Shown here in pieces: positions 1 to 64,000 of a stretch of DNA of 64,000 nucleotides (position 1 is its first letter; each line of letters starts with the position of its first letter). The stretch spans positions 61,301,245 through 61,365,244 of the forward strand of contig CM037861.1 in assembly GCA_021292105.1 (NCBI GenBank). Reading direction: 5' to 3'. Made by a program: the position numbers and the translations under genes. Origin of the DNA: Anadara kagoshimensis (lineage: Eukaryota; Mollusca; Bivalvia; Arcoida; Arcidae). Under the pieces are notes generated by a model. The model saw only the letters and a list, made by a program, of their open reading frames with translations. It was not told where the DNA came from and ran no database searches.

Positions 1-20377
<20,377 letters not shown>

Positions 20378-24384: not shown

Positions 24385-24693
24385 TTTTCGGAAAATGAAA
24401 TCGTAATGCAACCCATTAAAATGTATTTTGAGAGGGAGTCGTAGGTTCGAACCCAGCCCGGGTCATACATAAGTCTAAAAGAGACACTGCTTCCTCGTCT
24501 GGTTGTCAGTATCCAGACGACAGGGTATCGAACTGGTTCACCCAGTGACAAGATAATGTGTTTTGGGGAGTGATGTGCCTGTCTGCCGCCGCGGATGTAT
24601 TGACTCTGTGGGCTAGCAGTTTAAAGTAGCAACGTGTGCGCGCTACATGACAAGACAGGCCATAAAACAACACACTTGCATATCTCACGCATA
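24385..24693. repeat. SINE, left part (interrupted by LTR element)
   Basis: A tRNA-type B box (GTAGGTTCGAACCCAGCC) lies near 24443. The body resembles 27,170-27,510 (words such as CACACTTGC, CTCACGCATA). The sequence stops where the LTR element begins. Confidence 0.55.
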
Positions 24694-25152
24694 TGTGACA
24701 GTGCAAAACTTAACGTTTTTTTAACCACGATCAAATATTTTAATTAAACACTAGTTTCGAATTATTTCTATAAATTTACTGTTTTCCTTCATGTTTTATC
24801 TTAATCGCGTTAGACCAATCTAATATTACACAACGGATTAATCAAGACTTTTAAGTCATTAAGGATTTCACCTAGAGTTGGAAAATAAGTCATTCTTTTG
24901 TTTAGGACTTTCCGGGTAAGACTTTACCTGTGACATTATTTACTTATTATTTTATAGTGCTTAGTTTCCATGACGACCAGGTAATTTTTTTTTATTGCGT
25001 TGTTTGTATTTTGTTTTATGTTTAGCGTCAGTCTGGAAGTGGCCGTTGGATAGCCCAGGTCACAATTCCGACATAGAATAAATTTGTCAACTTTATTTGA
25101 GTTTTAAGTTTTATTTTAACTAGTTCAAATTGAGCTAGATTCCCCTTTATTA
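24694..25152 (+). repeat. 5' LTR
   Basis: The repeat starts TGTGACAGTGC and ends CCCCTTTATTA. It matches 26281-26739 without a difference I can find. It contains GAATAAATTTG, a possible poly(A) signal, at about 25077-25087. Confidence 0.88.
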
Positions 25153-25275
25153 TAAGTGGTGCGAGAAACCGGGGCAGTTTGCCGCAAATTGATGCGTAAG
25201 CCAAGCTGCACTACAAGATCCCGATACAAAACAGGACTTAATTTATAGAATTTTGTGGAACAATGATGTCTTAAA

Positions 25276-26222
25276 ATGGATGTTTTTTCTAGGTGGAGAC
25301 AAGTGGACAATATTCCTTGGAACCCATGTTACAAATGCGGATTTCTGTTCAACACCAGACATGTGGGGCTATGTAAAGCTAAACACGCCCGTTGTTTCCG
25401 TTGTGGACGCCTTGGACATTATGCCAGATGTTGCTGGTCAGAAACTGTGCAAAATCACACTATCAACTATCACAGGACACCACAGATAAATCACATTGTT
25501 GTGAGCAAAGGAAAAAGAAAACGTAGATCATGGAAGCAGAAAGCACGTGATAAACAAAGACTAACAAAGTATTTAGACAAAAAGAAATTTGTGCAAAATC
25601 TTCCTTTTTCAAAAATCGGCGAAAAAGATTTTCAACAGTTGTTTAGTGTAAATTCTAGGAACGATGATTTGGATCTTCTTTCCGACAATTTCAAAAGACT
25701 TAAACAAGAAAGGGTCGCACTTAATATTCAAATTAAGGAAAATACAGCCGTAAATTTACAGTTAGAGAAAACTTTGGTCAGTACAACGGAGAAACTAAAA
25801 ACCACAATAAACAGTCTGGACCGTTGTAATAAGGAAAATATTCATTCACGGCAAATAATAAAACACCTACAGGAACAGAGAAATGATCAATTGAAAATAA
25901 CAGAGGAATTAAATGAGGATATATTCGGACTTCGCATTGAAAACGAAAGATTGTCGGAAAAATTAGGCCGCGTCTTAGAAGAAATATGCATTTTATCATT
26001 CAAATGGATTCTTTAAAGCAGAAGGTGAATACACTTCAGGAAAAATGCAATGATGGTACGCCAGGAACTCAAAGGACAAGAAACCAGCCTTACACTCCGT
26101 TTGTGGATTCGAATGGAAAACCAATTCACATAATTTCATCAGAAGCTTTGTCATCTCCAAATGTGCATCTGAAAGATCCCGAGTGGCTACAATATACGCA
26201 AAGCCGTATTATATTTAAATAG
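25276..26222 (+). CDS. Gag-like CCHC zinc-knuckle/coiled-coil protein of the LTR element
   Basis: The ORF 25276-26016 (246 aa) begins with a cysteine-rich block. It includes a CX2CX4HX4C knuckle (CFRCGRLGHYARCC) and an upstream CX2C...HX3C cluster. A basic stretch rich in Lys and Arg follows, then more than 100 residues of heptad-rich coiled coil. A second ORF in the -1 frame (25986-26222) continues the heptads and then gives a Pro/Ser-rich tail. A single missing base in or near a T-run at about 25990-25994 would fuse both into about 320 residues; programmed frameshifting is the alternative. Zinc knuckles before the coiled coil is the reverse of the usual Gag order. Function is presumably RNA packaging. 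Confidence 0.6.
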
Positions 26223-26280
26223 TTTAACATGTTACTTAGATTCAAGTTTGGAGACCAAACTTCTCGGAGAAGAGGGATAT

Positions 26281-26739
26281 TGTGACAGTGCAAAACTTAA
26301 CGTTTTTTTAACCACGATCAAATATTTTAATTAAACACTAGTTTCGAATTATTTCTATAAATTTACTGTTTTCCTTCATGTTTTATCTTAATCGCGTTAG
26401 ACCAATCTAATATTACACAACGGATTAATCAAGACTTTTAAGTCATTAAGGATTTCACCTAGAGTTGGAAAATAAGTCATTCTTTTGTTTAGGACTTTCC
26501 GGGTAAGACTTTACCTGTGACATTATTTACTTATTATTTTATAGTGCTTAGTTTCCATGACGACCAGGTAATTTTTTTTTATTGCGTTGTTTGTATTTTG
26601 TTTTATGTTTAGCGTCAGTCTGGAAGTGGCCGTTGGATAGCCCAGGTCACAATTCCGACATAGAATAAATTTGTCAACTTTATTTGAGTTTTAAGTTTTA
26701 TTTTAACTAGTTCAAATTGAGCTAGATTCCCCTTTATTA
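26281..26739 (+). repeat. 3' LTR
   Basis: This is the second copy of the 459-bp repeat, offset exactly 1,587 bp from the first. It is directly preceded by the polypurine tract and GATAT. Confidence 0.88.
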
Positions 26740-26775
26740 GACGTTAAACAACATTACAAGGCAACAACAACAAGT
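26740..26775. repeat. SINE, right remnant after the LTR element
   Basis: GACGTTAAACAACATTACAA resembles the tail of the SINE at 27,485-27,505. Compared with that copy, about 50-60 bp between the two halves are missing. Confidence 0.45.
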
Positions 26776-26839
26776 ACTCGAGAAACACATTTAAATTTTA
26801 CGCATACTATAGATGGTAACTCCTCTACATGTCTCCCAC

Positions 26840-27150
26840 TACAGTAGATCATTTAGTAGAGTGCTTGCGCGCTTCGTATATGGGACGTCGTAGGTTCGAA
26901 CCCCGGCCGGGGTCCGACCAAGAATTGAAAATAGGAAATGAACGTTTTTTCGCAAAACACTCAGCATTTAGAAATGAAAGTCACATCGTCCTTCTGACGA
27001 CCGACGTCCCGTGTCACCCCTAATAATCCTCTTTGCATAATGCACTGAGCGCACTGTAACGCCGGTAAAAAATTCTGCCACTTCATCTATGGCTGGCGAT
27101 ATCTCGATATATAAGTGAAATATTTTTGACTGGGACACTGAAAAAATAAT
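26840..27150 (+). repeat. tRNA-derived SINE copy
   Basis: The head has an A-box-like segment (TTTAGTAGAGTGCTTGCGC) and the B box GTAGGTTCGAACCCCGGCC near 26,886. The tail GATATATAAGTGAAATATTTT then TTGACTGGGACAC is shared with 50,535-50,560. The sequence is too diverged in the anticodon region to be a tRNA gene. Confidence 0.6.
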
Positions 27151-54016: not shown

Positions 54017-63298
<9,282 letters not shown>

Positions 63299-64000
63299 CT
63301 GAAAATATAAAGAACAAAAGAAAATTAATAAACAGCATAGATATGTATAACTAAAATAAAATGAAATAAAACAAAACAAAATTAAATAATGTACACCAAT
63401 CAATCTATTTTAGACATCTCTGTCAATTGTGAACCATTCATTAATGACGAACGGAATTATTAGCACAATACCATTTGTTATGCATGCTATAAATGGATTT
63501 GGCGATTTACTGTAGGGCCATTTTGAAGAGCTACATTGTGGAATAAGCCAAGAACTATAGAGCTAACTAAGTTATTTAAGCCATTAACATATTCTTGTCA
63601 AATAGTCGTAAGACATACATGTCAATATATATAGAGAAAAAAAACCCACACACGGATGATAAATTTGTAAGCTGTTTATTAAAGACTTGAGAAAGAATAA
63701 ACATAACAATAGAACAGTATATTTTAAATAGAACTTTCAAAGAAGCATGTGACAATGTCACTGCAAATAAATGGAAGTTATAGACATTTGATGCGGAAGT
63801 ATTTTTTTCCTACAAATTTAGACAAACGTGATTTGAAATTTAATTAGCAAAGGTAATCTATTTTCCATAATAGGATGATTAACTGCCATGGTTTATACTG
63901 TAAAGTAATAATGGGATCTACAAATCATTTTGGCATTGAGAAAAATGACATTGAAAAGTTTTAACAGACTTTTTGAAATTATCATTGCATAACATTTAGA
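63299..64000 (-). other. Tektin 5' intron and upstream DNA
   Basis: After the acceptor at 63299-63300 the DNA is AT-rich with no ORF or promoter that I can identify. The non-coding first exon of tektin is expected here or beyond the window. Confidence 0.35.

Follow-up and report, generated by a model that had tools for sequence, protein, structure and literature searches.

A one-gene LTR element in the genome of Anadara kagoshimensis

The window analyzed here is a stretch of 64,000 nucleotides from contig CM037861.1 of the bivalve Anadara kagoshimensis, and the genome searched is its 1.115-Gb assembly of 36 contigs. At positions 24694 to 26739 the window holds a small long terminal repeat (LTR) element whose LTRs are identical at 459 of 459 sites, with the identity stopping exactly at both edges and no extension on either side. 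Zero differences among 459 sites limit the LTR divergence of this copy to roughly 0.65% or less (rule of three), which supports the recent insertion proposed in an earlier note on this locus. The sites for priming named in that note are also in place, with a polypurine tract, GGAGAAGAGGGATAT, directly before the 3' LTR and a primer binding site (PBS)-like sequence, TGGTGCGAGAAACCGGGGC, that has a single match in the window when up to three mismatches are allowed (0 expected). We consider the element to be a recently inserted member of a small non-autonomous family of LTR retrotransposons with its own selected protein, to which reverse transcriptase and integrase would be supplied in trans, and give this reading a probability of about 0.6.

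Only one long open reading frame (ORF) lies between the LTRs, in keeping with the earlier claim that the element codes without pol, and reading the ORFs of the window copy gave no reverse transcriptase, RNase H, or integrase. The longest ORF spans 25267 to 26016 from stop to stop with its first ATG at 25276, and it ends early, the homologous C terminus (83 residues) sitting in another frame (Table 1). The 3' LTR lacks the final TA found on family LTRs, so the 3' edge of this copy is damaged. A retrozyme, which is defined by a hammerhead ribozyme in the LTR, was considered and dropped, as an Rfam search of 24600 to 26800 at E values up to 1 gave no match and hence no such ribozyme in the LTR. 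A 25-nt repeat starting GTCGTAGGTTCGAACCC flanks the element at 24438 to 24462 and 26887 to 26911, the two occurrences being 92% alike; it resembles a tRNA B box, perhaps of short interspersed elements (SINEs).

Table 1. Anatomy of the window copy (aa, amino acids)
Feature	Position	Strand	Remarks
5' LTR, 459 bp	24694..25152	+	Identical to 3' LTR; family LTRs extend two bases more (...TA), their ends being defined from 4-bp target duplications
PBS-like site, TGGTGCGAGAAACCGGGGC	25157..25175	+	First 18 bases: 25 exact genome sites
5' leader	25176..25275	+	First part nearly the same in family L061 (by eye)
ORF as in the window copy, 246 aa	25276..26013	+	Equivalent to the N-terminal portion of the 315-aa protein in intact copies
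Two N-terminal zinc-knuckle-like motifs (CX2CX7HX3C, CX2CX4HX4C)	25327..25434	+	From sequence; kept in 9/9 intact copies aligned
Lysine/arginine-rich stretch	25504..25566	+	Residues common to five aligned proteins (K84, S85, R91, D92, R95 of P0001)
Probable coiled coil (part)	25663..26013	+	Below-cutoff coiled-coil Pfam match; periodicity reached by 10/300 shuffles for P0001
Homologue of C-terminal 83 aa, other frame	25971..26219	+	Protein match C5:61327215-61327463
Polypurine tract, GGAGAAGAGGGATAT	26266..26280	+	Last 12 bases plus LTR start: 43 genome sites at 0 to 1 mismatch
3' LTR, 459 bp	26281..26739	+	Without final TA and without target duplication

The family is multicopy, its protein is under selection, and its copies are mosaics

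A DNA search of the genome with the window element, in which 40 of 168 candidates were scored, gave at least 45 matches; the counts that follow are therefore lower bounds. At least 16 complete elements are present in addition to partial copies and LTR matches, two of them being a tandem pair that shares one LTR. The window copy is therefore not unique, which disposes of the concern raised in the earlier note that its LTRs might be an assembly duplication. With the LTR end taken as ...TA and the tandem pair counted once, a perfect 4-bp target duplication encloses 11 of 15 insertions. The LTR pairs of the 16 elements are 0 to 9 substitutions apart, five of them showing none, gaps aside.

Nine of the 16 complete elements keep a frame that is open for at least 300 aa from the ATG, its length being 314 to 316 aa, and additional full-length matches with open frames came from a protein search (C16:24235180 and C18:29993931). 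Omega values ranged from 0.14 to 0.52 across the 36 pairwise comparisons of the nine intact frames, which indicates that the protein was under purifying selection while the family spread. The copies do not descend clonally from one another. The window copy and copy L021 agree at 97.5% of positions in the knuckle part and at 86.4% in the coil part, and a site-compatibility test on 15 of the 16 elements (one of the tandem pair omitted, 180 sites, 3' LTR left out) rejected clonal descent, with 0 of 2,000 permutations. At separations under 50 bases, 0.18 of the site pairs are incompatible, a share that climbs to 0.44 at 400 to 800 bases. The copies of the window family are thus mosaics.

Two loci have unusual structures. 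L017 (C12:6263868-6269510) consists of two element bodies with a shared middle LTR and a single 4-bp duplication, GTTA, around the whole, and is perhaps a product of recombination or of multimeric cDNA. L012 and L013 (C15:22737188-22752000) form a tandem array with a period of ∼2.73 kb, in which a truncated element alternates with 1.6 kb of flanking sequence containing an inverted repeat; this spacer was rejected as coding sequence, having no ORF longer than 72 aa, and is a tandemly duplicated flank.

A protein with N-terminal knuckles, a basic region, and a probable coiled coil

The earlier note described a protein in which zinc knuckles precede a long coiled coil. The knuckle part of this description holds: in the alignments the motifs are N-terminal in all nine intact copies and in all but one of the four further families (see below), and the second knuckle (aa 40 to 53) is canonical as read from the sequence. 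The Pfam zf-CCHC model, proposed in that note as a check, scored the window ORF at 12 bits and P0001 (the intact 315-aa protein of copy L014, used as the search query) at 10.6 bits, both under the cutoff of 20.8, but the homologous protein of L063 passes with 24.8 bits.

After the knuckles the window ORF has a long stretch poor in proline and glycine, and a coiled coil is probable there, with moderate heptad evidence. In a first heptad test of three intact copies, one fell under the 95% shuffle level and two just above it. A spectral test of helical periodicity gave values reached by 10 of 300 shuffles for P0001, 16 of 300 for L064, and 0 of 300 for both L061 and L063. Alignment of five proteins from the window family and its relatives revealed 11 invariant columns, including K84, S85, R91, D92, R95, and P110 in P0001 numbering. 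Four of the five have knuckles at matching positions, and because the L064 protein is without them while its basic region and coil still align, the core common to the families appears to be the basic region and the coil.

No Pfam Gag or capsid family matched P0001 at E values up to 10 (the filters drop most matches above 0.1) or the four relatives at E values up to 0.1. Neither P0001 nor the four relatives had a Pfam match to an RNA recognition motif (RRM), a C-terminal domain (CTD), or an esterase. The coil regions gave below-cutoff Pfam matches to cellular coiled-coil families, the best being ADIP with L061 (E value of 0.00083). A profile search of the PDB returned nothing under an E value of 0.024, the entries listed being coils, knuckles of retroviral nucleocapsids, and a small number of unrelated chains; the best PHROGs match (E value of 0.0078) was to a family of unknown function and fell on the coil; and a scan of IMG/VR with P0001 yielded seven pattern matches, none of them confirmed. 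The earlier term Gag-like is therefore suggested by the knuckles and by neither a capsid nor a Gag family match, and we would describe a knuckle, basic, probable-coil protein for which the name Gag is used by analogy.

Related one-gene families in the same genome

A genome search with P0001 gave at least 97 matches, with 126 of 197 candidates scored, which merged into 75 loci including the window family. The diverged matches are 25 to 46% identical to the query, except for two short broken pieces at 54 to 56%. The longer alignments are colinear from near residue 1 to about residue 245 to 258, and many of the loci have open frames of 309 to 379 aa. Six diverged loci, picked mostly for their long open frames, were read (L061, L062, L063, L064, L065, and L066). 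They represent four families, since L061 and L066 (98%) and L063 and L065 (92%) pair up by protein identity, so that, with the window family included, the loci read in this genome make up at least five related one-gene families.

All six relatives have direct repeats enclosing a single ORF, and in none of the six was pol found between the repeats. Four of them (L061, L063, L064, and L066) retain nearly full LTR pairs of 444 to 764 bp that are 94 to 100% identical; the pairs of L062 (75 bp) and L065 (181 bp) are partial. The ends are TG..CA in both L063 and L064, which are flanked by 4-bp duplications (TGTC and AAAG, respectively). As judged by eye, L061 shares the 3' end of the LTR and the leader with the window family, and L062 shares the LTR ends and the purine tract; with one change, the tract is also present in L061 and L066. 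Omega was 0.44 and 0.36 in two other families, from one pair each. As the six relatives, from four further families, are one-ORF LTR elements without pol, the knuckle-first order is not the result of a recent deletion. Such a deletion from an ordinary Gag-Pol element had been named in the earlier note as an outcome that would refute its reading; what recurs instead in distinct one-ORF families is the same leader, LTR ends, purine tract, and N terminus.

A search with the L064 protein (all 115 candidates scored) gave 64 matches and recovered the window family with a best E value of 1.7e-6 and 24 to 28% identity in most such matches. It also returned a further group of ORFs at 33 to 47% identity, most of 230 to 350 aa, with mainly the basic region and coil in common (C6:23636688, C18:43281079, C14:46294251, C17:7410405, C3:59451288, and others, known as ORF matches only). 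L064-family matches cluster at C8:14338792-14422805, most of them with several internal stop codons, which suggests local duplication of dead copies.

Search for a pol-bearing partner

The junction between purine tract and LTR occurs at 43 genome sites with at most one mismatch, and 42 of these have a match to the window-family ORF within 1.5 kb, the exception being C12:35372184. Three mismatches bring 23 more sites, and the backward control gave 29 at up to three. All 25 exact sites of the PBS TGGTGCGAGAAACCGGGG are within 400 bases of a match to the ORF. Among its five sites with one mismatch, two adjoin ORFs of the window-family type and C2:57132473, C3:44526572, and C17:28112569 do not, so that 27 of the 30 PBS sites at up to one mismatch adjoin a match. 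Two mismatches gave 35 sites, of which C3:23689625 alone was matched to the ORF (by eye); as the control pattern gave a single match, these sites are not due to chance, and they could include the PBS of a partner. Among them the sequence TGGTGGGAGAAACCGGAG recurs, for example at C3:6258116, C4:44206855, and C8:12352820, and may mark either a different LTR family, as its PBS, or some other repeat.

The PBS of the L063 type has four exact genome sites, all adjoining relatives; the TGGTGGAGAAT in L063 may fit the 3' end of some tRNA-Ala. Two loci one mismatch away were rejected as LTR elements of this kind. L067 is a tandem repeat of about 175 bp. In L068, a direct repeat of 122 bp (89%) lies downstream of the site, so that it is not an LTR pair, and the frames resemble a non-LTR reverse transcriptase by eye.

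Of the best 40 of 183 LTR-match candidates, nine lay outside ORF-bearing copies, and by eye no LTR pair among the 40 framed a longer element. L030 was dismissed as the 5' LTR of a partner because its LTR is not followed by a PBS and the 5.2 kb read downstream contain no second LTR. L029 was dismissed likewise, with no second LTR in 8.5 kb downstream; a PBS-like site is present there, as is a 107-aa frame resembling the L064 protein by eye. The longest open frame among the matches of the P0001 and L064 searches measures 379 aa, and none of these matches therefore shows pol fused to the protein.

Proposed mechanism and alternatives

We propose that the LTR transcript would act as both mRNA and genome. 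The protein would bind the RNA of the element through its N-terminal knuckles and basic region and oligomerize through the coiled coil, and the resulting ribonucleoprotein would enter particles made by an autonomous LTR element, the reverse transcriptase and integrase of which would copy and insert the RNA. Two RNAs packaged together, with template switching during reverse transcription, would give rise to mosaic copies. The protein would thus be a packaging factor owned by the element, either substituting for Gag or docking to it, and in this proposal it would for that reason stay under selection although pol is absent.

Several observations weigh against this reading. The earlier note envisaged a non-autonomous family with a partner and a full element sharing its LTR or PBS; the family is indeed multicopy, but searches by PBS, junction, LTR, and protein match found no pol-bearing partner, and the supply of enzymes in trans is therefore a proposal. 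Reading covered only six loci among the dozens that are diverged. RNA binding, oligomerization, and particle entry are predicted roles, and the first knuckle (aa 18 to 33) is non-canonical; with L064 lacking knuckles as well, RNA binding by knuckles cannot be the function common to the families. Four of the 15 insertions have no perfect target duplication (the window copy, at whose edges none was found, the copy in the C15 array, L019 with three of four bases, and L022). The share of incompatible site pairs drops to 0.28 beyond 800 bases, and gene conversion could also have made the mosaics.

The protein could instead be an accessory factor, acting for example in nuclear export, anti-silencing, or translation of the element RNA, with packaging left wholly to the Gag of another element. 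The failure of P0001 and its relatives to match any capsid or Gag family agrees with such a role, as does the L064 family, which lacks the knuckles and has the basic region and coil, and an LTR element that needs a separate protein for RNA export has been published (Cer1 with CERV, PMC10309623). We nevertheless regard this as unlikely given the nucleocapsid-type knuckles shared by four of the five aligned proteins. Somewhat harder to sustain is a derivation of the families from an autonomous Gag-Pol element with an odd Gag, its pol-bearing copies being missing from the assembly or among the unread loci. The three one-mismatch PBS sites and the one junction away from any ORF match, together with most of the two-mismatch PBS sites, leave room for such an element, but the remaining junctions and PBS sites belong to window-family ORF matches, the best LTR candidates frame nothing longer, and no frame exceeds 379 aa among the protein matches.

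Uptake of a cellular coiled-coil gene between LTRs, where it would now hitchhike, is very improbable. The weak likeness of the coils to cellular families such as ADIP would fit it, but all six relatives read lie between direct repeats and no host gene was recognized among the few loci read. As for an assembly artifact or chance duplication, which the missing target duplication of the window copy might suggest, it is refuted by the other copies, which have the same anatomy elsewhere in the genome and mostly carry target duplications.

We tentatively suggest, at slightly less than even odds, that these families belong to an old and diversified animal LTR superfamily whose members never carry pol. 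The members would have in common, rather than Gag, a basic coiled-coil protein of their own, usually with N-terminal knuckles, and would parasitize the reverse transcriptase and integrase of unrelated LTR elements, much as SINEs live on long interspersed elements (LINEs), except that these LTR elements bring their own protein. Non-autonomous LTR elements are usually viewed as short-lived derivatives of an autonomous sister. If the suggestion is true, a single gene that diverged to about 25 to 46% identity with its selection and layout kept would mean that LTR elements without pol can persist and radiate, and it would raise the question of how a protein without a recognized capsid enters the replication of another element. 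Overall, the earlier interpretation of the locus is partly supported.

Other genes in the window

On the minus strand, 4463 to 18078 contains exons matching ketoacyl synthase, dehydratase, and methyltransferase/pseudo-KR, with a zinc-binding dehydrogenase below the cutoff, and represents an animal fatty acid synthase-like or polyketide synthase-like gene. A tektin exon (Pfam, 142.6 bits) lies at 62475 to 63350, also on the minus strand.

Comparison with known systems

Short LTR elements without functional pol include terminal-repeat retrotransposons in miniature (TRIM) and large retrotransposon derivatives (LARD), from which the window family differs in having an ORF under selection. The mammalian apparent LTR retrotransposons (MaLR) are animal LTR elements that keep mainly a gag-like region and rely on the pol of a relative. 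They share with the window family the lack of pol in an animal LTR element, but they derive from the gag of ERVL and have the usual domain order.

The short non-autonomous Troyka elements are likewise LTR elements without functional pol, defined by CG..CG ends and a 3-bp duplication (PMC12440569). Membership was rejected, as the elements here have TG..TA or TG..CA ends, 4-bp duplications, and an ORF under selection. The ORF1 proteins of LINEs come as type I, with an RRM upstream of CCHC, and type II, with the order coil-RRM-CTD, and their coiled coil or CCHC knuckle is thought to bind the RNA of the element (PMC4120745). The window protein has the order CCHC-basic-coil, and we rejected a LINE ORF1 carrier since no RRM, CTD, or esterase matched in Pfam and the element has LTRs. 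Among literature titles and the beginnings of abstracts no animal LTR element with a knuckle-first protein was found, a weak negative given that Repbase and most subscription journals lay outside this scope, and passages of a mollusc LTR survey contain no word starting with "autonomous" (PMC6238403).

The closest likeness is to the TR-GAG elements of plants, which also have LTRs, a single ORF, and no pol; for the window element, trans mobilization would be a further parallel. A new insertion of a TR-GAG is reported in Arabidopsis; that element encodes a 562-aa GAG and closely resembles a potentially autonomous member of its subfamily (PMC8704663), whereas in the window family the knuckles come first, no capsid is matched, and the searches above found no autonomous sister. 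We do not claim membership, a GAG domain having been sought by sequence and not found, but by analogy the window element may well work as the plant TR-GAG elements do.
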